From NCBI RefSeq assembly GCF_021555175.1, contig NZ_JAKGRW010000047.1:1-64000 (forward strand): a DNA stretch of 64,000 bases, given 5' to 3'. Shown here in pieces: positions 12,360 to 40,182 of this stretch. Below the pieces are notes generated by a model. It was not told the DNA's origin and did no database searches. It saw only the letters and a list, made by a program, of their open reading frames with translations. The DNA is from Nocardioides alcanivorans. GTDB taxonomy: Bacteria; Actinomycetota; Actinomycetes; Propionibacteriales; Nocardioidaceae. The number at the start of each line of letters is the position of its first letter. Position 1 is the first letter of the stretch. Position numbers and translations under genes: made by a program.

Positions 12360-13374
12360 CGTCCACCGCCCTTCTTGGGATGGCAGTTGCGGATGACGTC
12401 GTTGTCGAGCAGCGGCGCGAGGTCCTCGTCGAACAGGCCGCACAGGTAGGACTCGATCCAGTGGCCGTTGCCGGTGGCCGAGGCGAGGACCCGGTAGTAG
12501 GGGCCCATCTTCTTCAGCGCCTCCTCGAGGTGGTCCTGGTTGCGCTGCAGGATCTCCGAGACCCGGTCGAGCTTGGCCAACGCCGGCGCGAGCGTCTTCT
12601 CGTTGTCGGCCACGAGCCCCTGGAGCTCGGTGCCGAGCCGCGCGGTGCCGGTGAGCATGGCGTGCACCGCTTCGCGCCGGTTCTCCAGCTCGCCGAGCAG
12701 GTCGGAGCCGTCCTGGATGATCTTGGCGAACTCGTCGTTGCGGTCCTTCAGCGTGCCGGTCACCGACGTGGTGGAGGCCAACAGGCTCGCCAGCTCCTCG
12801 TCGCGGCTGCTGATGGTGCGCGAGAGGGCGCTCAACCCGTCGACCATCTCCCGCACCGACTCGGGGGTGTCCTCGAAGGTCGTCGACAAGACGTTGAGGC
12901 TCTTCTCCAGCTTGGCCGTGTCGATCGCGGTGATCTCGTCGGAGAGGTCGGAGAAGGCAGCGTTGACGTCGTACGGCGTGGTGGTGCGTGCCAGCGGGAT
13001 CCTGCCGTCGAGGTCCTCGCGGCCCTGGGGCGAGAGCGCCAGGTACTTGCGCCCCAGCAGGGTGCGCACCTTGACCGCAGCAGTCGTCTGGTCGCCGACG
13101 TGCACTCCCTTGACCTGGAAGCTGACCACGACGGCGTCCTTCTCGAGCCGCACGTCGGTCACCTCCCCGACCTTGACCCCAGCGACCCGCACCTCGTTGC
13201 CCTCGCGAAGCCCCCGGACTCAGCGAACTCAGCGGTGTAGGTGTCGCCGTTGCCGATCACCGGCAACGAGGACGCGTTGAAGGTCAGCAGGAAGACCGTG
13301 ACCAGCGCGGCGATCCCGCCGAGCGCGATGATCACCTTGTTGCGCTCGGCGAAGGAGAGCGGGTAGCGCGCCAT
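12356..13374 (-). CDS. mceC: Mce family protein C (frameshifted)
   Basis: MCE protein split into two frames. The 5' part (from ATG 13374) holds the membrane helix (VIIALGGIAALVTVFLLTF); the 3' part holds the rest of the MCE domain (RVAGVKVGEVTDV) and the helical region with LSTTFEDTPESVREMVDGL. One extra C in the run at 13211-13215 restores SGGLREGNEVRVAGVKVG and a 339-residue product. The start overlaps the mceB stop by one base (TGATG) and the stop overlaps mceD by 4 bp. Confidence 0.85.
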
Positions 13375-14396
13375 CAGCGGCACCTCCCGGCAACCGGCTT
13401 GACTCCGAGGTCGCCCATGTAGCCCTCAGGCATCGGGATCCGCCCTTCGATCGAACAGAGATAGAAGTTGATCCACGAGCCGTAGCTCGCGGTGCGGCCG
13501 ATCCGGTCGAACTTCACCGGAAGGGTCGTGAAGAACGTGTCGAGCACGTCCTCGGAGTCCGCGAGGTTGCCCGACAGTTGGCCGAGCGCGTCGATGTTGC
13601 CCTTGAGCGGCTTGCGGGTGTCGGCCAGCAGGGTGGAGACGCTGTCGGTGAGGTCACCGAGTCCGTCCAGGGTCGATCCGATGACCTCGCGGTCCTCAGC
13701 CAGGCCACTGACGAGCTGCTGCATGGTGGTCAAGGTGGTGGAGAGGTCGTCGGAGCGGGTGTCGATCGTCTCCAGCACGGTGCTCAGCGATCCGATGAGG
13801 TCTCCGATCACCTGGTCGCGATCGGCCAACGTCGAGGTGAGGCTGGCGGTGCTGCGCAGCAATCCCTCGACGGTGGCGTCCTCGCCCTGGAAGACCGCGA
13901 TGATCTGGCCGCTGAGGGCGTTGATGTCCTTGGCGTCGAGCATCCGCAGCAGCGGCTGGAAACCGTTGAAGAGCACGGTGAGATCGAGCGCTGGCCGGGT
14001 CTCGCCGAGCTCGAAGGTGTGGCCCTCCTCCAGTGCCGGGGCGGCCTGTGCGGGCGGCTCGAGGGAGACGTAGCGCTGGCCCACGAGGTTGCGGAAGCGC
14101 AGCTCCACACTGGTGCCCTGCTCCATCGGCACGTCGTCGCTGACGGTGAAGGTGACCTCGGCCTCGCTGTCGTTGCGCACCTCGACCCCGCTGACGGTGC
14201 CGACGCGGACTCCGCTCATTCGCACGTCGTCGCCCTTGTTGAGGCTGGTGGCGTCGGTGAAGATCGCGGTGAACTCACGGTTGGCGTCACCCTTGCTGTT
14301 GAGGATGGTGGCGCCGAGCGCAGCGGTGGCCAGCACCGTGACGATCGTGAAGACCAGGCTCTTGGCGGTCAGCCCGACCAGTGGGGAGATCTTCAT
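13374..14396 (-). CDS. mceB: Mce family protein B
   Basis: 340-residue MCE subunit. N-terminal transmembrane helix (SLVFTIVTVLATAALGATIL), MCE domain (LNKGDDVRMSGVRVGTVSGV, LVGQRYVSLEP), then a helical region and the C-terminal segment GSWINFYLCSIEGRI common in MceB/C proteins. ATG 14396 overlaps the mceA stop by 4 bp. Intact in this sequence. Part of the hexameric lipid-transfer channel. Confidence 0.92.
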   Translation of the reverse strand: MKISPLVGLTAKSLVFTIVTVLATAALGATILNSKGDANREFTAIFTDATSLNKGDDVRMSGVRVGTVSGVEVRNDSEAEVTFTVSDDVPMEQGTSVELRFRNLVGQRYVSLEPPAQAAPALEEGHTFELGETRPALDLTVLFNGFQPLLRMLDAKDINALSGQIIAVFQGEDATVEGLLRSTASLTSTLADRDQVIGDLIGSLSTVLETIDTRSDDLSTTLTTMQQLVSGLAEDREVIGSTLDGLGDLTDSVSTLLADTRKPLKGNIDALGQLSGNLADSEDVLDTFFTTLPVKFDRIGRTASYGSWINFYLCSIEGRIPMPEGYMGDLGVKPVAGRCR

Positions 14397-15727
14397 CGGA
14401 TGCTCACCTCCGCGTTGCGCAGCACCGGACCGACCAGCAGGCTGGCCCAGTCGGGGTACTCCTCGGGCTCCACGCCGACGGTGGGTGCCATCAGCTCGGC
14501 GATCAGCCTGTTCTCCGACGGCGAGTTGGCCTGGCCGAGTCCGGCGGCAGCCAGCTGGTCGCGCAGCACGTTGCCCGGCGGCGGGGCGATCGGCTCGGGC
14601 ACCTCCCGCTTCGGTGCCACCGTCTCGTCGCCGAGCACGGCCCCGCGGGAGCGGTTCTGCCCGGTGACGTAGGGGCAGCTCTTCTTGCCGTCGGTGGCGA
14701 AGCGCGGCTTGTCCTTGCCGGCGACGTACTTGCCGCGCGAGGCCACCACGTTGAGCTTGACGTGGATGCCGGGCTCGTCAGTGCCCTTGCCGAGGTTGCG
14801 CTCCATCTCGGGGATGAACTTGCGCGCCGACTCCAGCAGGCACGGGAACTGCGAGGCGTACGGCGACACGGCCTTCAGAGCGCGCCGGCTCTCCTTGGAG
14901 AGCACCACGATCGTCGACTGGTTGTCGCGCATCCAGCCGGTGGTGTCATCGGCAGCGCCGACGACGGAGGCGAAGAGGGTGCTGAGCTTGGTCTGCTCAT
15001 CGACGAGGGTCCGGTTGGTGACGGCCAGTGACTCCACCGCCTCAAGCAGGTCGGGAGCGGCGTCGGCATACACCTCGGTCACCTGGGCGAACTTGCCGAG
15101 GTTGGTGGCCATCTCGGGCACGAGTGGGTTGAGCTTGGCGAAGTAGGCCTCCCAGGCGCTCATCGTGTCGCCGAGGGACTCGCCCTGGTCGCGCAGCATC
15201 TGCACGGTCTCGCCGAGGGCCGCGGAGAGCTTGTCTGGCTTGATCGCCTGGAGCATCGGGAGCAGTTCGTCGAAGACCTCCTGGAGCTCGACGGCCTCGG
15301 TCGAGTCGTCCTCGACGATGACGTCGCCCTCCTCCAGTCCCTGCCCGCTGCGATCGGTGGCGACCAGGGCGACGTACCGCTCCCCGAAGAGGGTCTTCGG
15401 CAGCAGCCGGGCGACGGTCTCCGGTGAGAGGTCGCGGGCGACGTCGGGGTCCAGCGCCAGGGTCACGTCGGCCCCGGTGGCGGTGGCGTCGATGGACTTC
15501 ACCCGGCCCACCGGCACGCCGCGGAGCTTCACGTCGGAACCCTTCTGCAGCGCGTTGCCGATCTTGCCGGTCTGCAAGGTCACCTCGATGCGATCGCTGA
15601 AGGTCTGGTTGTAGGCGGCCAGGGCCCCGGCGAGCAGCGCCAGGATGATCAGGCCGTAGCCGGCGCCGAGCAGCAGGTCGGGCCAGCGCCGTTCGCGCTT
15701 GAGCTGGCGACGCTTGGGCGCGCTCAT
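14393..15727 (-). CDS. mceA: Mce family protein A
   Basis: 444-residue MCE subunit. ATG 15727 (MSAPKRRQLKRERRW) overlaps the YrbE-B stop by 4 bp and is preferred over the in-frame start 33 bp upstream, inside the permease gene. A transmembrane helix (LLLGAGYGLIILALLAGALAA) is followed by the MCE domain (ALQKGSDVKLRGVPVGRVKSI, LFGERYVALVA), a long helical region with FPCLLESARKFIPEMERNL, and a C-terminal extension. First of six MCE proteins. Intact. Confidence 0.92.
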   Translation of the reverse strand: MSAPKRRQLKRERRWPDLLLGAGYGLIILALLAGALAAYNQTFSDRIEVTLQTGKIGNALQKGSDVKLRGVPVGRVKSIDATATGADVTLALDPDVARDLSPETVARLLPKTLFGERYVALVATDRSGQGLEEGDVIVEDDSTEAVELQEVFDELLPMLQAIKPDKLSAALGETVQMLRDQGESLGDTMSAWEAYFAKLNPLVPEMATNLGKFAQVTEVYADAAPDLLEAVESLAVTNRTLVDEQTKLSTLFASVVGAADDTTGWMRDNQSTIVVLSKESRRALKAVSPYASQFPCLLESARKFIPEMERNLGKGTDEPGIHVKLNVVASRGKYVAGKDKPRFATDGKKSCPYVTGQNRSRGAVLGDETVAPKREVPEPIAPPPGNVLRDQLAAAGLGQANSPSENRLIAELMAPTVGVEPEEYPDWASLLVGPVLRNAEVSIR

Positions 15728-16560
15728 CCGGCGATCCTCACGGTCGTGGTCGTCCCCCACAGCGCCATGGAGAGCACCAGGTCGAGCACTGCGACGGTGA
15801 CGATGCTGCGGCGTACGGCGGCGCCCACCGCCACGCCGACGCCGGCGGGCCCGCCCTTGGCCATGAAGCCCAGGCGGCAGTGGATCAGGATGATCAGCAC
15901 CGCGAAGATCAGCACCTTCACGAACGACAGCAGGATGTCGATCGGTGGGAGGAAGAGGTTGAAGTAGTGGTCGTAGGTGCCGGCCGACTGGCCGTAGAAA
16001 TAGACCGTGATGAACCGTGACCCGGCGTACGAGGTCAGCAGGCCGATCACATAGAGCGGGATGATCGCGATGAAGCCGGCGACCACGCGGGTGGTGACGA
16101 GATAGGGCACGCTCGGCACCGCCATCGCGGTGAGCGCGTCGACCTCCTCGTTGATCTGCATCGCGCCCAACTGGGCGGTGAAACCGGAGCCGACGGTGGC
16201 CGAGAGGGCCAGGGCCGCCACCAACGGGGCGATCTCACGGGTGTTGAAGTAGGCGGAGATGAAGCCGTTGAGGGTGGCAGTGCCCACCTGGTCGAGCGCG
16301 GCATATCCCTGCATGCCGACGACGGTGCCGACGAAGAGGGTCATCCCGAGCATCACGCCGATGGTGCCGCCGATGACGGCCAGTGCTCCGGAGCCGAAGC
16401 TCACCTCCGAGAGCAGCCGCAGCACTTCCTTCGGATAGCGCACGACGGTGTGGGGGATCCGCACCAGCACAGCGGCGTGGAAGCGGAGGTTTCGACCGAC
16501 GCCGGCGAGCTTGTCGACCTGCGCGTCGACCAGCGGCAGCCGGGGTTCCACGTCAGCCAT
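15724..16560 (-). CDS. yrbEB: YrbE-type ABC permease B (MlaE family)
   Basis: 278-residue integral membrane permease of the MlaE/YrbE family with five or six hydrophobic segments and the family patterns GFISAYFNTREIAPLVAALA and GAMQINEEVDALTAMAV. It pairs with the YrbE-A permease to form the membrane core of the Mce importer, energised by the MceG-type ATPase. It starts right after the stop of the fused ATPase-permease gene and overlaps mceA by 4 bp. Confidence 0.92.
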   Translation of the reverse strand: MADVEPRLPLVDAQVDKLAGVGRNLRFHAAVLVRIPHTVVRYPKEVLRLLSEVSFGSGALAVIGGTIGVMLGMTLFVGTVVGMQGYAALDQVGTATLNGFISAYFNTREIAPLVAALALSATVGSGFTAQLGAMQINEEVDALTAMAVPSVPYLVTTRVVAGFIAIIPLYVIGLLTSYAGSRFITVYFYGQSAGTYDHYFNLFLPPIDILLSFVKVLIFAVLIILIHCRLGFMAKGGPAGVGVAVGAAVRRSIVTVAVLDLVLSMALWGTTTTVRIAG

Positions 16561-16561
16561 G

Positions 16562-18334
16562 TCAGGCCGCCTTCCCGGGGAACAGTTGCAGATAGAGGGT
16601 GGTGATCACGAAGTTGACGAAGAAGAGCAGCAGGAAGGTGATGACCACCGACTGGTTGACGGCGTCGCCCACGCCCTTGGGGCCGGGTGGGGTGTTGAGC
16701 CCGCGGTAGCAGGCGACGACACCAGCGACGAAGCCGAAGATGACGGCCTTGATCTCCCCCACCCACAGGTCCTGGATCTGGGCGAGCGCGGTGAAGCTGG
16801 AGAGGTAGGCGCCCGGGGTGCCGCCCTGGACGACCACGTTGAAGAAGTAGCCGCCGAGCACGCCGACCACCGACACCAGCCCGTTGAGCAGCACGGCCGC
16901 GAAGACGCAGGCGAGCACCCGGGGTACGACGAGGCGTTGCACCGGGTCGATGCCGATCACCCGCATCGCGTCGATCTCGTCGCGGATGCGCCGGGCACCG
17001 AGCTCGGCGCAGATGGCGGCACCACCGGCGCCGGCGATCACGAGGGTGGTGACGATCGGCGCGGCCTGTTGTACGACGGCCAACACGCTGGCAGCGCCAG
17101 TGAACGACTGCGCGCCGATCTGCACGGTCAGGGTGCCGAGCTGCAGCGCGATCACGGCGCCGAACGGGATGGCGACCAGCATGGCCGGCATCCAGGAGAC
17201 GCTGACCACGAACCAGAACTGCTCCAGCACCTCGCGCGCCGAGAAGGGTCGCCGGAAGGTGGCTCGGATCGTGTCGAGGGCCAGGGCGAAGAGGGCGCCG
17301 ATGTTGGTCAGCGCGCGGGTGACGAATCCTCGAGTGGGAACGCGGCGCGCTCGGTCGTGTTCGTCGTCGTCGGCGACGTAGAGCCGCGCTTCGCCGCTGG
17401 TGACGCGTTCGCGATGCCGGGTTCCGCCGGCCCGCGGGATGCCGGTACGGGGCACCAGCTGGCGGGGCAGCACCTCGATGGGACGCGCACCCGCGTGACG
17501 GGTGAGGAGGGCGGTGTCGCCCGGCCCGCCCTCGGGCAGGTCGAAGTCGACCTGGTGGTTGGAGCTGTGGTCGGTCTCCTCGCTCATGCCGATCGGCCCG
17601 TCGGGGTCGCCGCTCATGAACTGGCTGACCACGGGGTGGTCGGTGAGCAGGAACTCCTCGCGGGGGCCGAACATCACCAGCTCGCGGCGATAGAGCATGC
17701 CGAGGTTGTCGGGGAGGGTGCGGGCCAGCTCGATGTTGTGGGTGACGATGAGCATCGTGGTGTCGGTGGCCGCGTTCACCTCCATGAGCAGCTGCGCGAG
17801 GTTGGAGGTGCGCACCGGGTCGAGGCCCGAGTCGGGCTCGTCGATGAGGATGATCTCGGGGTCGGTGACCAGCGCCCGGGCGAGACCGGCACGCTTCTTC
17901 ATGCCGCCGGAGATCTCGCCGGGCAGCTTGTGCTCCTGGCCCAGCAGACCCACCAGCTCGAGGTTGGTGAGCACGATCTCGCGGATCTCCCGCTCCGGCT
18001 TGCGGGTGTGCTCGCGCAGCGGGAAGGCGACGTTGTCATAGACGCTGAGGGATCCGAAGAGGGCGCCGTCCTGGAAGAGCACGCCGAACTTCTTGCGCAG
18101 CTCCAGCCGCTTGGACTCCCGGGAGGAGACCATGTCGACGCCGTCGATGAGGATCTGCCCCTCCTCCGGCTCCAGCAGACCGATCAGCGCCTTGAGGAAG
18201 ACCGACTTGCCCGTGCCCGACGGTCCGAGCAGCGCGGTGATCTCCCCCGGCGGCAGGGTCAGGCTCACGTCGTGCCAGATGTTCTGCCGGCCGAAGCTCT
18301 TGCTCAGGCCGGTGACCTCGACAAGTCCGCCCAT
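16562..18334 (-). CDS. Fused MceG ATPase - YrbE-A permease
   Basis: 590-residue single reading frame. Residues 1 to about 250 are an ABC ATPase of the MceG/MlaF type: Walker A GPSGTGKS at 37-44, signature EISGGMKKRAGLARAL, Walker B ILIDEPDSGLDP, H-loop VTHN. A charged linker of roughly 90 residues follows (including EARLYVADDDEHDRARRVP). The rest is a complete YrbE-A/MlaE permease (LEQFWFVVSVSWMPAML; GAAICAELGARRIRDEIDAM; GVGDAVNQSVVITFLLLFF). The two are normally separate genes; no ATG or GTG occurs in frame in the last 50 residues before the permease domain. ATG 18334 follows an AGGGAG ribosome-binding sequence. Either a real fusion or, less likely, a sequence error that joined two genes. 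Confidence 0.8.
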   Translation of the reverse strand: MGGLVEVTGLSKSFGRQNIWHDVSLTLPPGEITALLGPSGTGKSVFLKALIGLLEPEEGQILIDGVDMVSSRESKRLELRKKFGVLFQDGALFGSLSVYDNVAFPLREHTRKPEREIREIVLTNLELVGLLGQEHKLPGEISGGMKKRAGLARALVTDPEIILIDEPDSGLDPVRTSNLAQLLMEVNAATDTTMLIVTHNIELARTLPDNLGMLYRRELVMFGPREEFLLTDHPVVSQFMSGDPDGPIGMSEETDHSSNHQVDFDLPEGGPGDTALLTRHAGARPIEVLPRQLVPRTGIPRAGGTRHRERVTSGEARLYVADDDEHDRARRVPTRGFVTRALTNIGALFALALDTIRATFRRPFSAREVLEQFWFVVSVSWMPAMLVAIPFGAVIALQLGTLTVQIGAQSFTGAASVLAVVQQAAPIVTTLVIAGAGGAAICAELGARRIRDEIDAMRVIGIDPVQRLVVPRVLACVFAAVLLNGLVSVVGVLGGYFFNVVVQGGTPGAYLSSFTALAQIQDLWVGEIKAVIFGFVAGVVACYRGLNTPPGPKGVGDAVNQSVVITFLLLFFVNFVITTLYLQLFPGKAA

Positions 18335-18386
18335 CGTCTCCCTCTTCTTGGTGACGCCGACACGTCCGAGAAGTGCGGCTGTGGGT

Positions 18387-18412
18387 GGCACCGGTCGCCA
18401 GCGACCGGTGCC
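18387..18412. promoter_or_regulatory. Perfect palindrome upstream of mce operon
   Basis: Two perfect 12-bp arms (GGCACCGGTCGC and its complement) separated by CA, 53 bp upstream of the start codon of the first mce operon gene. It could be an operator for a dimeric repressor or a 5'-leader hairpin. No run of T follows, so it is not a typical terminator. Confidence 0.6.
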
Positions 18413-18494
18413 AGCAGCGACACTAGGTGTGGCGTAGCCCACTGGAGTGGGCTCTCGGCCAGAAATTTCGGTGGCGCCCAAGACAGGTCGAATA

Positions 18495-18516
18495 GTTGTG
18501 ATGCAGTTGACAAGTT
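18495..18516. promoter_or_regulatory. TTGTCA-N6-TGACAA dyad, copy 1 (mce operon / DUF6907)
   Basis: TTGTGA, six bases, TGACAA, followed by GTTT. It lies between the divergent mce operon (start 18334) and DUF6907 gene (start 18626), about 160 bp from the former and 110 bp from the latter. It matches five other intergenic copies in this window (see findings). Confidence 0.55.
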
Positions 18517-18625
18517 TTTGGAGGGCAACAGCCCACAGGGCCAGCTGCATCTGCCTCCGGCCGGCTCGTCGGACCCGCAAACTACATTCGTGTAATTAGC
18601 TCCGTACAACGCAACGAGGTGGGCC

Positions 18626-23743: not shown

Positions 23744-24493
23744 TCAGGGCATCAAGTTGATGGGATACACCTCGGTGATGTTCCCCTTGGTGTTCCAGAC
23801 GCTGTCCGTGCCGATCTTGAAGCTGCTGTTGACGTCGATCACGCTCCCGACTGGCGTGAGACCCAGGCAGTCGCCAGCCGCCGAGACGATCGTCAGGTCT
23901 CCGCTAAAGCCGCTCTCGTCAAACGCCAGCACCTGCGCCGCTTCGTCGAAAGTGCCATCCACGTAGCCTTCGACGACGAAGTTGCACGTCGTTCCAGTCG
24001 GCCCTCCTGACGTGGCATACACGTGAACCTGAAGCGGAGCATCATTCGGCCCACTCAGATAGATGTTCAAGACATCCGTGGCCGACGCACTTGCGGTTCC
24101 GAGCGCATGGACTTCCCAGTCATTAGTCTGGATGATGCGCATATCCAGGCTGAACGGAGCAATGCAACCCTTGCGCTCCGAGCCGTCAACTATATCTGGC
24201 GCGTTCAGCAGTGAAACCGGTTTGATTTCCATGAACGGGTCAACACCAGAGCCGGAATGCACTTCGCCCTCCAGATTGACGTCGTCGCAACTCATGGAGG
24301 TGACAGTTGAATCCGAAACTCTCTTGACCGAAAAGGCCACACCGCTCAAGTCGCTAGCATAGAAGAGGTGGCTCCCGGGTGCCGTCGACCCGCCGACGCT
24401 CACCGTATGGGTGTCTGGATGCGCAACTGCAGTTGCAGTCAACGCAGCGCATACGGCCACCGCTCCGAGCACACTCAGGGTTGTTCTTCTCAT
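23744..24493 (-). CDS. Secreted protein of unknown function, paralogue of 25318 gene
   Basis: 249-residue protein with a signal peptide (TLSVLGAVAVCAALTATAVAHP). The mature region is closely related to the product at 25318-26100: TVSVGGSTAP.SHLFYASD, FSVKR.SD.TVT.MSCD, NDWEVHA, GTTCNFVVEGY.DG.FDE and the ending NTKGNITEVYPINLMP. The even spread of beta-prone sequence and paired Cys suggests a disulfide-bonded beta-sandwich outside the cell. ATG 24493 is chosen; the GTG at 24517 lies inside the upstream hairpin. I do not recognise a named family. Confidence 0.7.
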   Translation of the reverse strand: MRRTTLSVLGAVAVCAALTATAVAHPDTHTVSVGGSTAPGSHLFYASDLSGVAFSVKRVSDSTVTSMSCDDVNLEGEVHSGSGVDPFMEIKPVSLLNAPDIVDGSERKGCIAPFSLDMRIIQTNDWEVHALGTASASATDVLNIYLSGPNDAPLQVHVYATSGGPTGTTCNFVVEGYVDGTFDEAAQVLAFDESGFSGDLTIVSAAGDCLGLTPVGSVIDVNSSFKIGTDSVWNTKGNITEVYPINLMP

Positions 24494-24516
24494 CTCTTCA
24501 CCAACCTTCCTGAACA

Positions 24517-24556
24517 CAGGCGGCTGGCTCGGCTCTCGGCCGATGCCAGCCGCCTG
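24517..24556 (-). terminator. Hairpin between secreted-protein genes
   Basis: Perfect 12-bp stem (CAGGCGGCTGGC and complement) with a 16-base loop, 7 bp after the stop at 24564. Probably ends or attenuates transcription between the two secreted-protein genes. Confidence 0.65.
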
Positions 24557-24563
24557 TCTGTCA

Positions 24564-25199
24564 TCAGCTGAGTCGAGCGTTGGCCATGTCGATCTCCACC
24601 TGGTTGCCCGATCCGGGGATCAGGAGGTTGATCAGCCAGGTGTTGAGCCCACAGTTCTGGAAGTCCCCGATGGAGAACTCGCCGTGGACCGTGCCGCCCA
24701 CGAAGAGATCGAAACCGCCTTCGGGCGGAGACGAGATCGGAATCGTCACCGGATTGATGGTTCGGCAGTGATTGCCGGTGATGGTCGGGAAACCGACAAT
24801 CTTGATGTTCGAAAGCCGGATGTGGTAGCTCGCGACGCCATCGACGCGACTGCCCACCTGGCCAGCGCTCAGGGTGCCCGTCACCGGTGCCGCCTCAACG
24901 AACGCAACATCGGCCTTCACGGGGATGAAGCCAGCGACCTCGAACTTGGTGGTCGTGCCGGGCAAGGGCATCGAACCGGTAAAGTCTCCGGTCGCATAGT
25001 CCAACTGGGTTGTAAGCGTCGACGGGCCCAGATCAATGGACGAGTCGGTGCTCGCGATGTAAGCGGAACCGCCTGCATCATAAGTAACGTTCAGAATCGG
25101 CGCCGCCGAGGCCGACGACGGCATCATCGTTGCCGCAACTACTCCAGCGCTGGCAAGGCCAACGGCCATGCGACGTAACGTTCCACCACTTTTCTTCAC
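24564..25199 (-). CDS. Secreted protein of unknown function
   Basis: 211-residue protein with a clear signal peptide (MAVGLASAGVVAATMMPSSASA). The mature part is beta-rich, with two Cys (NHCRT, QNCGL) and alternating Gly/Thr/Asp strands. GTG 25199 follows GAGGAGAA at good spacing. It lies between two paralogous secreted proteins but is not related to them. No family recognised; a periplasmic or cell-surface lipid-handling or porin-like beta protein is possible but unproven. Confidence 0.65.
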   Translation of the reverse strand: MKKSGGTLRRMAVGLASAGVVAATMMPSSASAAPILNVTYDAGGSAYIASTDSSIDLGPSTLTTQLDYATGDFTGSMPLPGTTTKFEVAGFIPVKADVAFVEAAPVTGTLSAGQVGSRVDGVASYHIRLSNIKIVGFPTITGNHCRTINPVTIPISSPPEGGFDLFVGGTVHGEFSIGDFQNCGLNTWLINLLIPGSGNQVEIDMANARLS

Positions 25200-25259
25200 A
25201 ACTTCTCCTCACGATTCTCAGAGACAAGGGTCTTGCAACTGCTGCGACGATCCCGAGAT

Positions 25260-25294
25260 TGGGGCGCTGAGAAGGTCTAGCTCCCAGCGCCCCA
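25260..25294 (-). terminator. Hairpin terminator after 25318 gene
   Basis: Stem TGGGGCGCTG paired with CAGCGCCCCA around a 15-base loop, 24 bp downstream of the stop at 25318. Confidence 0.65.
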
Positions 25295-25317
25295 CTCCTT
25301 CATCTAGTCGCGTGGGT

Positions 25318-26100
25318 TCACGGGGTGGAGATGAGGTTGATCGGGTGGTTCACCGTGATGTTGCCCTTGGTGTTACCCGAGTCGTCCTTGCCGATCTCGA
25401 AGGAGCCCTCGAAGTCGGCGGGTGAGCCGGCGGGAACGAGCTCGAAACAATCACCTTCCGTGGAGACCACGGTCAGATCACCACTGAATCCGGTCTCGGT
25501 GATGTTCAGAGTCTGGTCCGACTCGTCGAAGTTGCCGTCGGCGTAACCCTCGACGATGAAGTTGCAGCTGGTGCCCTCCTTGCCGCCCAAGGTTGCAAAG
25601 ACATGCGCTCGCAGGGGGTCATTGTTCGGACCACTGACGTAGCCACTGACGATGTTCGTCAGCGCAGACGTCGGGTTGGTTCCGTCAGCATGTACTTCCC
25701 AGTCGTTCAACTGCTTGACGGTCATATCCAAACCAAATGGTCCCGTGCATCCCTTCCACTCCGTGGCCTGCCCAGGGTTGTTGGCCGGCCCGACGATGTC
25801 GGGTGCGTTTGCCAAGCTCACCTGCTTGATGACCCCGATCGGGTCGATGCCGGTTCCCGAATAGACCTCACCCTCCGCGTTGACCTCGTCGCACGACATC
25901 GGCGTGACGGTCGCGTCAGAGAGCCTCTTCACGGAGAAGTCAATCCCATTGACATCGCTGGCATAGAACAGGTGGCTGGCCGGCGCGGTCGAACCGCCGA
26001 CGCTGACCGTATAGGTGTAGGGGTGCGCAAATGCTGCAGCGCCGATGGCCGCAGTGGTCACGAGTCCGCCGACGGCGACCCCGATCAGTGACTTCCTCAT
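25318..26100 (-). CDS. Secreted protein of unknown function, paralogue of 23744 gene
   Basis: 260-residue secreted protein. Signal peptide MRKSLIGVAVGGLVTTAAIG...FAHP, then the same domain as the product at 23744: VSVGGSTAPASHLFYASD, FSVKRLSDATVTPMSCDEVN, NDWEVHADG, GTSCNFIVEGYADGNFDE, FSGDLTVVS.EGDCFEL. ATG 26100 has AAGGGAA at suitable distance. Divergent from the 26475 gene across a 374-bp region that holds two TTGTCA-type dyads. Function unknown; the duplication suggests dosage or specialisation of an envelope component. Confidence 0.75.
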   Translation of the reverse strand: MRKSLIGVAVGGLVTTAAIGAAAFAHPYTYTVSVGGSTAPASHLFYASDVNGIDFSVKRLSDATVTPMSCDEVNAEGEVYSGTGIDPIGVIKQVSLANAPDIVGPANNPGQATEWKGCTGPFGLDMTVKQLNDWEVHADGTNPTSALTNIVSGYVSGPNNDPLRAHVFATLGGKEGTSCNFIVEGYADGNFDESDQTLNITETGFSGDLTVVSTEGDCFELVPAGSPADFEGSFEIGKDDSGNTKGNITVNHPINLISTP

Positions 26101-26224: not shown

Positions 26225-26250
26225 GAAGTTGTTATGCGCGTGACAACTTC
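26225..26250. promoter_or_regulatory. TTGTCA-N6-TGACAA dyad, copy 2
   Basis: Arms GAAGTTGT and ACAACTTC are perfectly complementary; written to the consensus it is TTGTTA, six bases, TGACAA. About 125 bp upstream of the minus-strand secreted gene (start 26100). Confidence 0.65.
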
Positions 26251-26371: not shown

Positions 26372-26393
26372 ACTTGTCATGTAGGTGACAAGA
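26372..26393. promoter_or_regulatory. TTGTCA-N6-TGACAA dyad, copy 3
   Basis: Perfect CTTGTCA / TGACAAG arms with a six-base spacer (TGTAGG). 82 bp upstream of ATG 26475. The best-conserved copy in the window. Confidence 0.65.
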
Positions 26394-26474
26394 AACGCGA
26401 CCTGTTCCACCGATGAGCCCGCGTTATCCATCAATCCGATTGTGACGCGACTCGTCGGCTGCAACTGTCGTCAC

Positions 26475-27445
26475 ATGCAACGACAGTCTGTGGTGCGGGT
26501 TCTCGCGGGGATAGCGCTACTTGCCACCGCGTTGACAGTGGTCGGCGGCTCGGCCGGAAACGCGGACGGACCTCGTCCTGGTCTTCCGAACCCACCTGAG
26601 CAGGGCGGCGCTTGGACCCCTGTCGTGCAGGGTGGCGCGGCCGAAGCCAAGAAGGCCAAGCAGTGGACGCGTGTGCCCATGCAGGTAACAACCGTCTACA
26701 ACCTCACACAGTCGGTGCCGCTGCCGCCCGGTGACCCGCGGATGGACCGTAAGAAAGCTACCAACTACCTGTATCTGATGCCGGAGGCCAACGCACCCCA
26801 CAACTACGGATTAACCGCGCCGTTCACTGTGCGCACCGTAGCGTTCGGCAGCATCCCCGTGACCGCGACACTACGCATGGCGCAACGTCGCGATGCTGCA
26901 GGTCTACCGATTCCGCTGGTTGTCACCAACTACGACGACTACTACCGCTCCGGGACACAGCCTCCTGACTGGCCAGCGTGGGCCGGCACCCGGTTCTATG
27001 AGGACACCGAGGTCGCCGAACAATTGGATGTGCTCGTCCAGGCGGTCATCGTCGACGGCGTCGACCTTGGACTGCGTCCCGGCTGCAAAACGGTGGAGAT
27101 GGCTACCCTCGCCCTCCACGGCGCGGGTTTCATCTCCCGCGATCCCACCGTGAACGAGCTCAAGCCGTGGCTGAGCGGCCACTACGCCCCCGCTGCGGGC
27201 GGGTTGTTGTCCGGCACCGTCGACGTCCCCGCCTTCGCGAGTTGCGTCACCGAGTCCGGCGAGGACGTGTCCGCGCTGCTGACGGCCACCGTGTCGGGCC
27301 CAGACAACGGGGTGGCACTACACGCGAACAGTCCCTTCGTTCCCTGCACCCATACGAATCTGCCGCAAGTCGGCGAGTACGACGCCGCCGCGACCTGTCC
27401 CGACGCAATTCCCGGTCACGTCAACCTCCCCCGGAGCGACCCTGA
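26475..27445 (+). CDS. Secreted protein of unknown function (frameshifted C-terminus)
   Basis: 323-residue exported protein. Signal peptide VVRVLAGIALLATALTVVGGSAG, then a mature region with TNYLYLMPEANAPHNYGLT, a Tyr-rich NYDDYYRSGT segment, and several Cys (PGCKTVE, ASCVTE, FVPCTH, ATCPDA) that could pair. As written the frame runs into the next gene to 27521. One extra C in the run at 27428-27432 gives the ending HVNLPPERP and a stop at 27445, leaving room for the AAGGAGA ribosome-binding site of the RCC1 gene. Family not recognised. Confidence 0.7.
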
Positions 27446-27477
27446 CCGACCACCGGCCTCAACAACAAGGAGAGAAC

Positions 27478-29034
27478 ATGTCATCGAGACTGCTAACCCG
27501 CGGCGTAGCCACCGTAGGTAGCCTCGCAGTCGCTGTCGGTCTGCTCACAGCTGGCGGAGCGCAGGCGACCACTACCCCGTCCGATGCCGGGCAGGCGCTG
27601 GCATGGGGCGTACCCGACACTTCCGATCCCACACTTTCAGCAGCGCTACTCAACACCCCGCTCGCTAAGGTGGAGTCAGGTTTTAAGCACGCAGTGTTCT
27701 TGTCTGCGTCGGGCAAGGTTTTCACAAGTACCGACAAACCCGAGTACGAGCCGCCTTCCTCCCTCATCAATCAGACGGTAGTCGACGTCTCAGTCTCCAT
27801 GAGCGGATCCGTCTACGTCGCGCTCAATGACGCCGGCGAGATGACCTTTTGGGGAGCTCCAGCAACCGGCGCCGATCCCAGCGCTGTCGACGTCAGCAAC
27901 CTGGTCCAGGTGAGCATGGGGGGCGGCCATGCGGTCGGCATCAAGGAAGACGGCACCGTCGTCGCCTGGGGAAACAACACATACGGACAGACCGACGTGC
28001 CAGAGGGGCTCAGCAACGTCACTAAGGTTGTAACTGGAACGCAGCACACCTACGCCCTGCGCGCCAACGGTTCTGTCGTCGCTTGGGGCGATGACACGAA
28101 CAAGCAAGTCAGCCACCTCCCGACTGAGCTGACCCTTCCCGGAGCGGTGAAGGACATCGAGGCCCGGTCCGACGGCGGCCTCGCACTCCTCGCCGACGGC
28201 ACTCTTGCTTCCTGGGGCAAGAGTGCGACCGTGGGTCGCGGCACAATGTATAACCAAGTACCCGCGTCGCTGGATGGCAAGATCATTACTCAGATCAGCG
28301 CAGGTGCTGACACAAACCTCGCGATCGATTCCGACGGTGCCATCACCACCTGGGGCAACAGCTTCGGAACGCCTTCGAACGTCCCGGATGGTCTAGACGG
28401 CCGTGGGGTGGCTTCAGTCTCCGTGGGGCAGGACTACGCCTTCGCCATCCAGCGCAAGGTGATGACCATCTCCGAGTCGACTGTCGCAGGCACCGCCAAG
28501 GAAGGCCAGACCCTGACCGGCACCCCGGCGAGCTTCTCGGGTGGACCCGAGATCACCTATGAGTGGCTCGCCAACGGCACCCAGATCGCCGGTGCAGACA
28601 GCACGACGCTGACGTTGAGCAAGGCCGAGGTGGGCAAGAAGATCGCCTTCCGGACGGTCGCCACCAAGGACGGCGAGGTTCTCACGTCCGACTCGACGGC
28701 AACCGCTGCAGTCGTCGCGCTGGCACCGGCCGTCAGCACGACCAAGACCCAGATCGGCAAGCCCAAGGTCAAGAACACCAAGAAGGGCAAGAAGAACGGC
28801 AAGGCCAACTTCACGGTCAAAGTGACGGGCAACAAGCCCGCCGGCAAGGTCAAGGTCGTCGTCAAGCTCGGCAAGAAGAAGGCCTTCAACAAGGCCGTGA
28901 ATCTCAACAAGAAGGGCGTGGCCAAGGTCAAGCTCAAGAAGTTGAAGAAGGGCCAATACAAGATCGCCGCCAAGTACGCAGGCAACAAGGCGAACAAGAA
29001 GTCGACCGCGAAGTCGAAGTTCCGCGTGAAGTGA
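27478..29034 (+). CDS. Secreted RCC1-repeat protein with lysine-rich Ig-like tail
   Basis: 518-residue exported protein. After a signal peptide (SLAVAVGLLTAGGAQA), residues about 40-325 contain RCC1-type beta-propeller repeats (e.g. VQVSMGGGHAVGIKEDGTVVAWG, KVVTGTQHTYALRANGSVVAWG; one per 40-50 residues). Next comes a SGGPEITYEWLANG...I Ig-like domain, and from about residue 420 a lysine-rich beta domain (KNTKKGKKNGKANFTVKV; ending SKFRVK). The tail resembles that of the amine-oxidase-like protein encoded at 29865. Strong AAGGAGA ribosome-binding site. Probably cell-surface; ligand unknown. Confidence 0.85.
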   Translation: MSSRLLTRGVATVGSLAVAVGLLTAGGAQATTTPSDAGQALAWGVPDTSDPTLSAALLNTPLAKVESGFKHAVFLSASGKVFTSTDKPEYEPPSSLINQTVVDVSVSMSGSVYVALNDAGEMTFWGAPATGADPSAVDVSNLVQVSMGGGHAVGIKEDGTVVAWGNNTYGQTDVPEGLSNVTKVVTGTQHTYALRANGSVVAWGDDTNKQVSHLPTELTLPGAVKDIEARSDGGLALLADGTLASWGKSATVGRGTMYNQVPASLDGKIITQISAGADTNLAIDSDGAITTWGNSFGTPSNVPDGLDGRGVASVSVGQDYAFAIQRKVMTISESTVAGTAKEGQTLTGTPASFSGGPEITYEWLANGTQIAGADSTTLTLSKAEVGKKIAFRTVATKDGEVLTSDSTATAAVVALAPAVSTTKTQIGKPKVKNTKKGKKNGKANFTVKVTGNKPAGKVKVVVKLGKKKAFNKAVNLNKKGVAKVKLKKLKKGQYKIAAKYAGNKANKKSTAKSKFRVK

Positions 29035-31951: not shown

Positions 31952-31973
31952 ATTTGTCACCCACATGCCAACT
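31952..31973. promoter_or_regulatory. TTGTCA-N6-TGACAA dyad, copy 4
   Basis: TTGTCA, CCCACA, TGCCAA (one mismatch in the right arm). The reverse complement CATGTGGGTGACAA closely matches copy 3, including spacer bases. About 210 bp upstream of the PucR-type gene at 32184. Confidence 0.55.
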
Positions 31974-32183
31974 TTCGGCACTGATTCCCCGCCTCCCGGT
32001 GACCTCGCTTGTCGAGCACCGCGCCGAGGGCTTGAATCCAGACAGCACCGGGGCCGCTGCTGCAAGGACTCTTTGACGATCTGCATCACCAAGGTGGACC
32101 ATGTGACCCACAACACACCGGAGCGCGGAGGGAAAGCCGATGGTCTGTCGTACTTGGGGGCGCGGGCTGCATGGAAACGCGTC

Positions 32184-33432
32184 ATGAGTCATGCCCAGGC
32201 TGAGGTTTCCCAGCCATCCGATCTCAATGCACTGATCCTGGACGCGCGAACCGCCATCCCGGCCCTCGTGGCCGAGATCGTGGCCGACATCCGCGCCTCC
32301 GTCTCGGCCTACGCCGGACCAGAGGGCGGCGAACGACAACGGGTGATCGCACTTGCTGTCACCAAGGCGGCCCACCAGTTTCTCGACACCCTCGCCGGCC
32401 CGACCCCGCCCGACCCACAGGTCGCGAAGCTCTTCCAGGACATGGGGTTCGGCGAACTCCAGGAAGGCCACACCCTGGACCCGATGCGGCGGGCGCTCCG
32501 CATCGCGACCCGGCATTCGTGGCGGGTGCTGCACCGTTATGCCAGCCACCACGAGTTCAGCGCGGCCTTCCTCGGGCACGTCGGCGATGCGCTTCTCGCC
32601 TACATCGACCACCTCGATCGGGAGGTGGAGCGCGGCCACCGCTTGGCAACCGTTCGCGGGCGAGGCCACCCGGAGCGGGTCCGCGAGCACCTGATCGACG
32701 CCCTGCTGCTCGACGTACCCAACTGCGAAGCTCGCCTCACCGAGCTCAAGGCGGAGGCCAAGAGTGCCGGATGGACACTCCCAGCGGAGATCGTGGTGCT
32801 GCGCGTCAGCCACCATGGCGCCTTCCCCGAGATGGGAGTTCGACGACAGCGTCCTGGTCAGGCGGACGACCAGGCCCGCGCTGCTGATCAGCGCCAGCCG
32901 GGACGCGGAGGAGCTGGCCCGCCGCGTCAGCCGAGCGGGCCCAGGACTCCGAGGTCGCGGTGAGCTGGCCGTTGCTGCCCACGCAGGGCGCCGCCGCGGA
33001 CCGGTGGGCCCGCCGTGCGCTGGAGCTTGGTCGACGCCGGCGTCATCCCGCCCGACCCCGTGATCCGCTGCCGCGACCTGCGCCACCCAGCTCTGGCTGC
33101 ACGCCGAGCCGGTGCTGCGCCAGCAACTCACCCAGGAGCTCCTCACCCCGTTGCTCGCGGAGACAGCGAACTCTCGCGAGATCCTCTCCGAGACGATGCT
33201 CGCCTGGTTGGAGTCGCGCGACAGCGCGCCTGCGATCGCCAGCAAGCTCCACGTGCACCCGCAGACCGTGCGCTATCGCTGGAAACGCATCAACGAGCTC
33301 TTCGGCGACCTGCTCCACGACCCCGACTACGTGATCTCGGTGACGACGCTTCTCAAGGCAACCGTGCCGCTGTGGAAGGCGGGAGACCTCACCGACGTGC
33401 AGAGTTTCAAGGCATCCCAAGGGGCCCCATGA
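32184..33432 (+). pseudogene. PucR/CdaR-type regulator with four +1 insertions
   Basis: Paralogue of the gene at 34976. The intact homologous order is: N-terminal helical region, a central GGDEF-like region (PAEIVVLRVSHHGAFPEM), then the PucR C-terminal helix-turn-helix (AIASKLHVHPQTVRYRWKRI). Four single-base insertions break it: near 32835 (ATGGGAG for ATGGAG), near 32955 (extra A in CTCCGAGGTC), near 33030 (GCTTGG for GCTGG) and near 33088 (CGCCACC for CGCACC). Removing four bases gives 414 residues colinear with the paralogue. The 3' part overlaps the next start by ATGA. ATG 32184 is chosen; others lie upstream. Either a decaying gene or a poorly sequenced patch. Confidence 0.75.
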
Positions 33433-34745
33433 ACGAACACGACGAGCCGCCCGTCGCCACCCTCCCCATGGGTTGGGCAACGGCGGGATGCACCGCGCTC
33501 GCCCTTCACCTCCTCTGGCTCGTGCCTGCCGTGCGGGCTTCGGCGGCAACCACCTACGGCGCCGCGGCGGCCGGAAGCGTCGTGCTGGTTGCCCTTGCCA
33601 TCGCACTCCTGCGTCGCGAGAGCGTTCCCGGCCCCTTCCTACGGCGATCCTGGGCGGCGGTGCTTCTCGGAGTGGCTGTCGCCGGCACCGCATGGGCACT
33701 GCGCGACGGACCCTCGACCGCGGTCTCGACCCTCGCAGCCGCCGGTATCGCCAGCGCCCCGGGAGCCGTGCTCCTCAGTCGTCCGTTGACCTTGGCGGCG
33801 TTGCGCCAGCACGCCCAACGCCAAGGGATCGGGCTGCCGAACGGGCAACATCTGATGGCTGCCGGCGACCTCGATTCCCTGGTGCTCGACAAGCACCGCA
33901 GCGTCACCACAGGATCGATGGAGATCACCTCTGTCGAACCGATCGATGCGGAGCACCGAAACAACCTGCTCTTCTTCGCCGGCGCCCTCTCCCACTCCTC
34001 CACCGAGCCTGCAACCGCAGCGTTGGCCCGACGTACCGGCAAAGGACGGGTGACGGACTTCAAGGAGCTCGATGGCAAGGGGCTCACCGGGGCCGTCGAC
34101 CGCCATCCGGTGCGGGTCGGACGACCGGATTGGCTGGGCCTCACGACCCCCGAGATACGCGGAGTCACCATGGCGGTCGAGGTCGACCACCGGACGCTGG
34201 GTGCGATCACCGTCGATGACGTGCTCCGTCCACACGCCCGGGAGCAATGCGCAGACCTCGCCGCCATGGCGCCCCTGACGCTGGTCACCGACGCCCCCGC
34301 AGGCGACGCGGCCGCGCTGGCCGAGGACGTGGGCGTTGCCCGACACATCGCCGGCTGTGGCGCCGACTGTCGACTGGACGTCGTCAAGCGGACGCAGGGC
34401 GACGGCCACCGGGTCGGCTTCATCGGCACTCGATCCGCCACCAACCTGCAGGCGTTGGAACAGTGCGACCTCGCCGTCACCGACCACCGGCCGGGCACCC
34501 CTCGGCTGGAGCACGCCGTGACGCTCGACGAGTTCGACCTCACCGGCATCGTTCGTGGGCTGTCACTGACGCGCAATGCCCGACGCCGGGTGCGTAGAGC
34601 CGACCTCGTCCCCGTCGCGCTCTCCCTCACTGGCGGAGTTGCCGGAGCCTCGGGGCTGCTCAGTGCGTACGCCGCAGCGAGTGTCGGTCTCGCGGTCTCG
34701 GTGATCGCCGCAACCTGGGTGTTCGCGGTCGCTCGTCGAAGCTGA
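33429..34745 (+). CDS. P1B-type ATPase-like pseudoenzyme (degenerate catalytic motifs)
   Basis: 438-residue membrane protein. The N-terminal 120 residues hold about four hydrophobic segments. The remainder aligns motif by motif with the cytoplasmic part of heavy-metal P-type ATPases, but each catalytic motif is changed: LVLDKHRSVTTG where DKTGTLT is expected, SSTEPATAAL for SEHPLA.AI, GAVDRHPVRVGRPDWL for G.VDG..V.VGN...L, ITVDDVLRPHAREQ for I...D.LRP.A, TLVTDAP for MLTGD, and GFIGTRSATNLQALEQCDLAV for GDGINDAPALA.ADVGIA. It should not hydrolyse ATP through a phospho-Asp cycle in the usual way. Translationally coupled to the upstream PucR-type gene (ATGA). Confidence 0.7.
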   Translation: MNEHDEPPVATLPMGWATAGCTALALHLLWLVPAVRASAATTYGAAAAGSVVLVALAIALLRRESVPGPFLRRSWAAVLLGVAVAGTAWALRDGPSTAVSTLAAAGIASAPGAVLLSRPLTLAALRQHAQRQGIGLPNGQHLMAAGDLDSLVLDKHRSVTTGSMEITSVEPIDAEHRNNLLFFAGALSHSSTEPATAALARRTGKGRVTDFKELDGKGLTGAVDRHPVRVGRPDWLGLTTPEIRGVTMAVEVDHRTLGAITVDDVLRPHAREQCADLAAMAPLTLVTDAPAGDAAALAEDVGVARHIAGCGADCRLDVVKRTQGDGHRVGFIGTRSATNLQALEQCDLAVTDHRPGTPRLEHAVTLDEFDLTGIVRGLSLTRNARRRVRRADLVPVALSLTGGVAGASGLLSAYAAASVGLAVSVIAATWVFAVARRS

Positions 34746-34843: not shown

Positions 34844-34867
34844 TTTTGTCTCCCCCGTGACAACTTC
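34844..34867. promoter_or_regulatory. TTGTCA-N6-TGACAA dyad, copy 5
   Basis: TTGTCT, CCCCCG, TGACAA, then CTTC as in copy 2. About 110 bp upstream of the second PucR-type gene. A partial CTACTTAT element (like 18974 and 19486) follows at about 34873-34890. Confidence 0.55.
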
Positions 34868-34975: not shown

Positions 34976-36237
34976 TTGCCCCAGGGGGAGACACCGCAGG
35001 GCTCCACAGAAGAACGCCCGCAGACCTGGGTCGACGTGGTCCGAGCCGTCCGCGAGGCCCTGACGCCGGCCGAACGCGACTCAGTGGTGGCAGCAGCGCG
35101 GTTCAGACTCGCAGCGATGTCGGCACGTGCGACGGGCGACGTGCTCGCACAACTCGACACCACTCCTGGACCAGTGGCCCTGGACGCGATCGAGGGTGCC
35201 GTCGTGGCCGTGCCCCAGCAGTTCCTCGCGGCCCTGGCCGACAGCGAGGTCACGCACGGGGCAGCCGTCACCCGGTTCCTGGATCTGAACCTCTTCGATC
35301 GGTCCGACGACGGCAGTGACCTGCGAAGATCGCTGCGCACGATCGGCCGTCACACCTGGCGGCTTCTCTATCTCGCGTCCGCCGACGTCCTCGACACGGC
35401 ACCCCTGGGTCTCCTCGGCGAGGCACTGTTGAGTTACCTCGGTGACCTCGACCGGCGAGCAGCGCGCAGTCTCCAGACCGACGACAAGCTCACCGACTAC
35501 GACCACCTCATCGAAGCGCTGCTGACGGACGAACCTGATTCCGAAGCCCGGATGGAGGAGCTCGCTGCCGACTCGCTCGGCGTCGACTGGACGCTGCCCA
35601 CCTCCATCGTCGTGATGCGGGTGAAGTATCACGGCACGCTCCCGACGTTGCGGACCACCCACGACATCCTGATCCAGGATCTCGGCAATCCAGCACTCGT
35701 CATCTGTGACGCCGAGGTGGCCGCGGAGGTCGCGGCACAGATCAAGCAGGCAGCGCCCGGGCTGCGGGTCGCGATCAGTTTGCCCATGCCACCGACCCAG
35801 GCCGCTGCCGCAGATCGGTGGGCCCTCCGTGCGTTGGCCCTGGTCGACGCCGGCGTGATCCCGCCCCACCCGATCGTCCGCTGCCGAGATCACGTCACGC
35901 ACCTGTGGCTGCACGCCGAGCCGATGCTGCGACGCCAGCTGACCCAGGAGCTCCTCACACCACTGCTCGCCGAGAGCTCCAACTCGCGCGAGATCCTCTC
36001 CGAGACGATGCTCGCCTGGCTGGAGTCGCGCGACAGCGCCCCGCGATCGCAGACCGACTCCGGGTCCACCCCCAGACCGTGCGCTATCGCTGGCGCAGGA
36101 TCAACGAGCTCTTCGGCGACCTGCTCCACGATCCCGAGTTCGTGGTCACCGTGACCATCCTCCTCAAGGCGACCGTGCCGATGTGGAAGGCCGGGGACCT
36201 GAGTGACGTGGCCATCTACAAGGCGGCGCAAGCCTGA
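34976..36237 (+). CDS. PucR/CdaR-type transcriptional regulator (frameshifted near HTH)
   Basis: 420-residue regulator, intact apart from one lost C. The N-terminal region is helical, the middle resembles the GGDEF-like region of CdaR/PucR proteins (TSIVVMRVKYHGTLPTL, NPALVICDAEVAAEVAAQI), and the C-terminus is a PucR helix-turn-helix (AIADRLRVHPQTVRYRWRRI). As written the frame breaks at 36039-36042; one extra C there restores SAPAIADRL. TTG 34976 with AAGGG upstream is the likely start. Paralogous to the broken gene at 32184. A good candidate for the factor that reads the TTGTCA dyads (inference). Confidence 0.8.
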
Positions 36238-36239
36238 CA

Positions 36240-36267
36240 AGAACTCATCACCCAGATGACAAGTTCT
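36240..36267. promoter_or_regulatory. TTGTCA-N6-TGACAA dyad, copy 6 (weaker)
   Basis: On the reverse strand ACTTGTCAT, CTGGG, TGATGAG: left arm perfect, right arm degenerate. A second TGACAAGAAC half-site overlaps the preceding stop codon at 36235. 68 bp upstream of the transglycosylase gene. Confidence 0.45.
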
Positions 36268-38420: not shown

Positions 38421-40069
<1,649 letters not shown>

Positions 40070-40182
40070 TCACGCTTCAGAGTTCGTGGACGGCCCGGTT
40101 CGCTGCCCGCGACGGCCGATCTGGCTGACCCGGCAGACCCTTCCCGCCGACGCTTCAGACCTCAACTCACCGGTCCGTGTGT

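Follow-up and report, generated by a model that had tools for sequence, protein, structure and literature searches.

The window, that is, the whole stretch of 64,000 nucleotides analysed here, carries on its forward strand an open frame of 438 amino acids (33429..34745) that we call the pseudo-P1B-ATPase gene, an assignment supported by the NCBIfam profile TIGR01525, an AlphaFold2 model, and structural matching with Foldseek and VIA. Its ATG start overlaps the TGA stop of a PucR-type regulator gene (gene 1, 32088..33432, forward strand) as ATGA. The extent of gene 1 was taken from tblastn with the intact PucR proteins of two related loci, L061 and L062 (match extent plus stop codon), and the gene lies in two pieces that are in different frames and overlap at about 32827-33077. 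A second PucR-type gene, also found by tblastn, is located at 34976..36237 of the same strand and has a frame change near 36040. Since frame changes are seen in both PucR genes and in the groEL gene of the window, assembly indels are likely. Thus, the ATGA overlap with a PucR-type gene that the first-pass annotation had described is present in the sequence, though PucR gene 1 is split by a frame change.

The reverse strand holds an Mce operon. Its first gene encodes a fused MlaF-MlaE type ABC ATPase and permease (16565..18580; Pfam MlaE, E = 4.4e-68, and ABC_tran, E = 1.6e-32), and the rest of the operon (8874..16560) encodes Mce proteins with MlaD and/or Mce4_CUP1 domains and a YrbE/MlaE permease (15727-16560). 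Three further reverse-strand genes within 23747..26100 (23747-24517, 24567-25199, and 25321-26100) belong to families that recur beside the PucR/pseudo-ATPase pair; a Pfam scan of these three returned no match, signal peptides were judged by eye in the second and the third, and structure prediction gave a beta-barrel model for the product of 24567-25199. A gene of a recurrent secreted-type family (cluster 1) follows on the forward strand at 26385..27518.

Copies of a dyad, TTGTCA-N6-TGACAA, lie next to these genes. The sole exact copy in the window, TTGTCATGTAGGTGACAA (26374..26391), is located between the divergent secreted-protein genes, and the same divergent region contains TTGTTATGCGCGTGACAA (26229..26246, one mismatch). 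Sites with one mismatch were also found upstream of PucR gene 1 (TTGTCACCCACATGCCAA, 31954..31971), upstream of PucR gene 2 (TTGTCTCCCCCGTGACAA, 34846..34863), and at the head of the Mce operon (TTGTGATGCAGTTGACAA, 18496..18513). The last of these sits 76 bases inside the called frame, the start of which was probably called too far upstream. Two weaker sites with two mismatches were detected, one before a transglycosylase-like gene (TCATCACCCAGATGACAA, 36245..36262), which may be due to chance, and another at 26521. In total, the window has five sites with at most one mismatch versus 0.01 expected from shuffled sequence, and seven with at most two versus 0.72 expected, so the dyad regulon proposed earlier is real in the form TTGTCA-N6-TGACAA. 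The dyads tried first, TCAATNNATTGA and TGCCNANTTTCGGCA, led nowhere.

Catalytic motifs and predicted fold

Alignment with intact P1B ATPases revealed that in the window copy DKTGT is replaced by DKHRS (residues 154-158), SEHP by SSTEP, TGD by TDA (residues 287-289), and GDGxNDAP by GTRSATNL (residues 333-340), which bears out the initial reading of DKTGT, SEHP, TGD, and GDGINDAP as altered. In the same alignment the CPC metal motif of M4 reads APG in this copy. TIGR01525 (heavy-metal P-type ATPase) matched residues 83-428 with an E-value of 1.3e-24 and 87 bits, below the curated cut-off of 346 bits for this profile; the sequence of a solved copper ATPase (PDB 3rfu) matched with an E-value of 2e-13, and a Pfam scan of the window copy returned zero matches. 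Judged by these sequence matches, homology to P1B ATPases is beyond chance, and the cytoplasmic part does follow heavy-metal P-type ATPases as first proposed.

An AlphaFold2 model of the window copy (built from 35 sequences) had a pLDDT of 87.1 and a pTM of 0.86. When it was compared with PDB structures by Foldseek, P1B ATPases were the top matches (4bbj, E = 2.0e-21; 3rfu, E = 2.7e-20), and VIA-align gave Z-scores of 23.9 with 7qbz (413 aligned residues, rmsd 3.9) and 23.8 with 3rfu (423 aligned residues, rmsd 3.7). The model thus retains the P- and N-domain fold of a P1B ATPase, and a different fold for this protein is ruled out by the Foldseek and VIA matches.

The modelled membrane helices flank the P- and N-domains (approximately residues 140-366). 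Ahead of the soluble part the model has helices at 15-37, 41-64, 73-93, 95-109, and 111-131, the last two of which are probably one kinked helix, and behind it helices at 371-407 and 413-436. The overall layout is therefore four helices or helix pairs N-terminal and two C-terminal of the soluble part, while a simple hydropathy count gives 3+2 membrane segments. The actuator domain is absent: just 8 residues separate helices 41-64 and 73-93, and the model has no room for it elsewhere. The first-pass claim that the protein lacks a six-helix metal channel is thus upheld in part, as the actuator domain and CPC are missing, but about six membrane helices are kept.

Conservation and spread of the family

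The three best non-self matches to the window protein among 58 genomes, its own included, had 34-36% identity; they are short proteins encoded directly behind a PucR-type gene and have lost the same catalytic motifs. With a threshold of 177 bits, a profile search of 215 genus genomes identified 36 places in 35 genomes. Of these places, 33 were fetched (those in G063 and G233 and a second place in G188 were left out), and a member in G144, which scores 153.8 bits and thus falls below the 177-bit line, was confirmed by inspection. A separate set of 33 loci from a named collection, covering Nocardioides, Pimelobacter, Aeromicrobium, Mumia, and a few records placed at higher rank, holds 34 members; the two sets are not independent, some genomes probably being in both. 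The peptide patterns used on the named collection were built from the altered motifs and favour altered members, a bias from which the genus profile search is free. The family rows comprised 43 sequences (34 from the 33-locus set, the window copy, and 8 from other genomes), of which 39 remained after reduction at 90% identity. Two members found later, L122 (genome G336) and L144 (genome G144), stand outside the 39; L122 keeps SEHP and has VDKHP and DKQGY.

None of the 39 non-redundant members has an intact DKTGT, SEHP, or GDGxND, while VDRHP is present in all 39 and NLRWFA in 34. Conservation of the individual catalytic positions is uneven. The phospho-acceptor Asp (Asp154 column) is kept in 33 members, replaced by another residue in five, and falls in a gap in one (L055); the Thr at the fifth position of DKTGT is kept in 31. 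At the TGD position, Asp is found in 17 members and Gly (column 288) in one, and [ST]GD, counted regardless of position, is present in seven sequences. The His of SEHP is kept in 11 members, the two Asp of GDGxND are found at their columns in two and nine members, and the motif III Lys is Arg in 22. With the acceptor Asp, the TGD Asp, and the SEHP-position His kept to this extent, residual chemistry or nucleotide binding is possible.

Comparison with 30 control ATPases, 23 of them non-redundant, pointed to gains as well. The controls were chosen for DKTGT, so its presence in 23 of 23 is by construction. Twelve columns are near-invariant in the family (at least 90% of the 39) and found in at most 25% of the 23 intact ATPases: R178, N179, R181, W182, F183, G206, R225, P227, R229, G237, R255, and R267. 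Ten of the twelve lie within residues 178-237, i.e. in the N-domain. Fourteen old near-invariant positions are retained, including G218, G221, and G231; G218 is found in 38 members and G231 in all 39.

In a maximum-likelihood tree of 73 rows, a branch supported at 100/100 separates the 43 family rows from the 30 same-order ATPases, which fits a single origin of the family. For 17 pairs of relatives that partly overlap and leave out the window copy, the dN/dS ratio was 0.06-0.44; by this sequence measure, relatives lacking the catalytic motifs are under purifying selection. The window gene is, on these comparisons, a member of a family rather than a single decayed copy, and decay of one copy is ruled out by orthologues with the same losses, by selection, and by the new near-invariant positions. 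As far as sequence can tell, the family is a pseudoenzyme, with its fold kept, its catalytic residues lost, and selection acting on it (measured on relatives). The suggestion of a pseudoenzyme made at first pass is thereby supported, and the altered motifs on which it was based turn out to be common to the family.

The membrane part varies between members. N-terminal hydrophobic segments range from 0 to 6 over the 43 rows: 24 have one segment ahead of the soluble part, and four (two Mumia, one Aeromicrobium, and one Propionibacteriales record) have six. At least one N-terminal segment is present in 42 rows, the exception being L055, a 269-aa protein the start of which is probably truncated, and one to three C-terminal segments are present in all 43. 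When the tree is rooted at its midpoint, the earliest branches are those of the Mumia copies and of one long Aeromicrobium member. Several separate reductions of the membrane part are likely, because the other long forms are nested in the tree.

Within the genomes searched, all members of the family come from Nocardioidaceae, apart from a few in closely related, unplaced actinobacteria. When 394 genomes of the class were scanned for DNA encoding VDRHPxRxG, 20 places in 19 genomes were found. Fourteen of them, in 13 genomes, match the family profile and all belong to Nocardioidaceae, the window included, with one of the fourteen (L156) truncated or frameshifted; the six places in six genomes outside Nocardioidaceae gave no match to that profile. 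The pattern misses some members: G079 carries the family but was not matched. At the level of the order, a profile search over 293 genomes returned the family mixed with true ATPases, and among the matches listed outside Nocardioidaceae the frames were of about 730 aa or more and scored at most about 232 bits. Judging from these searches, spread beyond Nocardioidaceae is unlikely.

PucR pairing and distribution of the dyad

A PucR-type gene adjoins all 34 members of the 33-locus set on the same strand, so the pairing recurs across the family; in L067 the PucR frame is partial, covering the C-terminal 603 nt only and lying behind other gene pieces. As start codon we took the first one found from 40 bases ahead of the PucR stop onwards. 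With this rule the pseudo-ATPase start overlaps the PucR stop by four bases (-4, ATGA or GTGA) in 26 of the 34; the remaining spacings are -1 in two and +6 to +13 in three, and the gene order is reversed in three, two of which have a possible start at -4. The three intact partners scanned all carry an HTH_30 domain (L083, E = 1.3e-15; L062, 1e-15; L061, 2.5e-14). Searched against the PDB, a PucR profile matched MabR/Rv2242 (9f80) at 1.7e-5, and the match was confined to the HTH part. All family members come from in or near one bacterial family, so PucR adjacency may be partly inherited linkage.

The 33 loci (417,274 bases in all) were selected for the protein rather than for the dyad. They contain 44 exact copies of the dyad, spread over 22 loci, compared with no copy for any other spacer from 0 to 15 in the same loci and no exact dyad when the sequence was resampled five times from an order-1 Markov model. 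Of the 44, 31 have a PucR gene, an Mce-type gene, or a recurrent neighbour (mostly secreted-protein genes) starting less than or equal to 500 bases away; of the other 13, three are near another gene and ten near none. Five of the 44 are inside called frames, the gene calls around the dyads being crude. A wider listing has 71 exact dyads, ten of them inside called frames; 27 of the 71 come from the window and from stretches many of which were fetched for holding dyads. The recurrent neighbour clusters 1, 2, and 3 are present in 20, 14, and 14 of the 33 loci, respectively, and the MlaF-MlaE type (Mce-type) cluster 5 was called in only four.

At the level of whole genomes, the exact dyad was found in 34 of 209 genus genomes, 31 of which carry the family at 177 bits or more, or 32 if G144 is counted. 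The family is thus present in 32 of 34 genomes with the dyad versus three of 175 without it (Fisher's test, P = 6e-32, kinship not controlled); G144 was inspected because it had dyads, and dyad-less genomes were not inspected alike. G165, which carries the family, is outside the 209 genomes. In G110, G124, and G132 the family is present with no exact dyad in the genome and no site within one mismatch in the fetched stretches; because of this, operator drift is possible. Conversely, G140 and G227 have the exact dyad and lack the family, and in G140 the dyad sits before a thiamine-pyrophosphate enzyme gene; this number, two, is close to the three genomes matched by a reversed control pattern. 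Three of the four exact dyads in the window's own genome are elsewhere than in the window, with no recurrent family beside them, and two of these three are inside called frames, which speaks against the switch proposed below. Exact dyads lying far from the pair include G000 C4, C52, and C57 and several in G080 and G014; some of their neighbours look secreted by eye and others do not.

Proposed role of the pseudo-ATPase

Gene order and the shared dyad suggest that the pseudo-ATPase acts jointly with the PucR-type protein. We consider it probable that this membrane-tethered protein is a regulatory partner, or co-sensor, of the PucR-type factor and helps to set a lipid-uptake regulon. In this view, a P1B copper-type ATPase would have given rise to a protein that has probably lost catalysis and was recruited as a partner of PucR. 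The two proteins would be made in matched amounts and touch each other, and PucR would bind the dyad. The N-domain, which retains its glycine loop and has the new invariant VDRHP and Arg residues, may bind either PucR or a ligand, for which a nucleotide, an acyl-CoA, or another anionic lipid-derived molecule are candidates. In response to the signal, the pseudo-ATPase would hold PucR at the membrane or release it, and expression of the lipid-uptake regulon would change. Because Mce-type importers are among the apparent dyad targets, a lipid-uptake switch seems to be the simplest reading, and a dead ATPase tethered to the membrane would be in a good position to act as co-sensor of such a switch. 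More tentatively, we propose that a metal pump has turned into a signalling subunit: the former ATP-binding domain of a dead P-type ATPase would read a lipid-linked or nucleotide signal and pass it to a DNA-binding partner. The two proteins would then form a membrane switch controlling lipid import, a type of system for which the literature searched offers no description.

Other explanations were weighed against these data. The pseudo-ATPase may be an effector, acting as a scaffold in the membrane or as an assembly factor, either for the Mce importer or for the secreted barrel-like proteins, and merely co-regulated through the PucR operon. Its membrane segments and the dyad common to the pseudo-ATPase and Mce-type operons agree with such a role, which we nevertheless regard as unlikely: the overlap in 26 of 34 cases is with the PucR gene, not with mce genes, PucR adjacency persists in the three reversed-order loci, and Mce-type genes (cluster 5) were called in only 4 of 33 loci. 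Less likely still is a residual enzyme that would serve signalling through slow nucleotide binding and hydrolysis or through phosphatase action at the retained Asp. The conservation of Asp154 (33/39), the fifth-position Thr (31/39), G218 (38/39), G231 (39/39), and the TGD Asp (17/39) speaks for such an enzyme, but the rarity of the two GDGxND Asp residues (present at their columns in 2/39 and 9/39) and of the TGD Gly (1/39), the change of the motif III Lys to Arg in 22 members, and the replacement of Asp154 in five and its gap in L055 argue against it.

Frame changes in both PucR genes and groEL, together with a truncated or frameshifted copy in G301 (L156, a 189-aa frame), could raise the suspicion of a decaying gene or of an ATPase misread through sequencing error. 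This is highly improbable, however, given the open frame, the orthologues with the same losses, the purifying selection in relatives, and the new near-invariant residues. We retain the regulatory partnership with PucR as the preferred reading.

We know of no P-type ATPase that has turned into a bacterial transcriptional co-regulator, and in the open-licence literature (titles and abstract openings) we found no description of a P-type ATPase/PucR pair or of such a co-regulator. The C. elegans P-type ATPase CATP-1 reportedly acts independently of its predicted pump function and resembles our case in having a regulatory role, but it is of the animal Na/K-exchange type and has no tie to a transcription factor gene. 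With the heavy-metal P1B ATPases CopA and ZntA, the protein studied here shares the P- and N-domain fold, membrane helices, and clear sequence descent; unlike them, the family lacks DKTGT, GDGxND, and SEHP (39 members) and is encoded beside a PucR gene, and the window copy lacks CPC and the actuator domain. The likely target operon in the window resembles the Mce and Mce4 lipid and steroid importers in having MlaE, MlaD, and Mce4_CUP1 domains.

The partner genes scanned carry HTH_30, as do the PucR-type lipid regulators MabR (Rv2242) and its Streptomyces relative FasR. In the accessible sections of the published work, MabR regulates mycolic acid genes and recognises TTTTGT-N9-ACAAAA (PMC5541348), gel-shift results point to sensing of acyl-CoAs longer than C18, and its parts are an N-terminal globin-like, a GGDEF-like, and an HTH domain (PMC11617747). 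Compared with the MabR site as given in those sections (PMC5541348), our dyad shares the TTGT...ACAA half-sites but separates them by one base more. Unlike MabR, for which the same sections of the two papers name no partner of the pseudo-ATPase type (PMC5541348, PMC11617747), the regulator found here has a pseudo-ATPase partner and apparent Mce and secreted-protein targets. The main text of two steroid transcriptomes of Nocardioides simplex, in the sections accessible, makes no mention of PucR, and the one motif shown there, Lcin1, differs from the dyad (PMC7593942, PMC7807495).

The Nocardioides/Pimelobacter group includes steroid-transforming strains. Our analysis provides a candidate regulon with a testable operator in Nocardioides and Pimelobacter, comprising Mce-type importers and secreted proteins, one of which is modelled as a barrel. 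If the proposed partnership is true, it would illustrate the way in which a P-type ATPase can have its N- and P-domains reused for sensing.

Variant members of the pseudo-ATPase family and unusual pairs with PucR

Among the P1B-ATPase-like proteins with altered catalytic motifs (pseudo-ATPases), the member from genome G336 (loci L122 and L150) retains the SEHP motif and carries VDKHP and DKQGY. A PucR-type regulator gene adjoins it, and this member perhaps represents an intermediate state. In contrast to the conserved members, the copy at L156 (G301) is truncated or frameshifted, with a frame of 189 aa.

The arrangement with PucR also varies. Two PucR/pseudo-ATPase pairs stand in tandem at L078 (Mumia) and L151 (G284), which are probably one contig; the longest membrane parts among the pseudo-ATPases are found at these tandem-pair loci. 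In Nocardioides daeguensis (L067) only the C-terminal part of the PucR partner is left, preceded by other gene pieces, a state that would reflect either rearrangement or misassembly; despite the cut PucR, the pseudo-ATPase frame is intact.

Frame changes in the assembly

The groEL gene (38421-40073, minus strand) is split over two frames. Both PucR genes of the window show the same kind of split, which suggests that indels are present in this assembly.

Mce operon, secreted-type protein and other genes

The Mce operon (8874-18580, minus strand), whose first gene encodes an ABC ATPase fused to an MlaE permease, has the TTGTCA-N6-TGACAA dyad with one mismatch at its head. The cluster that contains the secreted-type gene at 24567-25199 also encodes a protein with RCC1-like repeats and an Ig-like tail (27478-29031, plus strand). 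A copper amine oxidase domain protein (29742-31922, plus strand; PF01179, 5.1e-29) bears STGSTNGG-type repeats close to its start.

The secreted-type protein encoded at 24567-25199 (minus strand), which has relatives, is predicted to fold as a beta-barrel (pLDDT 84.8). Foldseek gave no match to this model at E ≤ 0.001. In VIA comparisons the model scored Z 12.9 against NspA and 12.7 against OmpW, with soluble barrels scoring lower. If outer-membrane-like or lipid-binding, the modelled barrel would be notable for such a bacterium.
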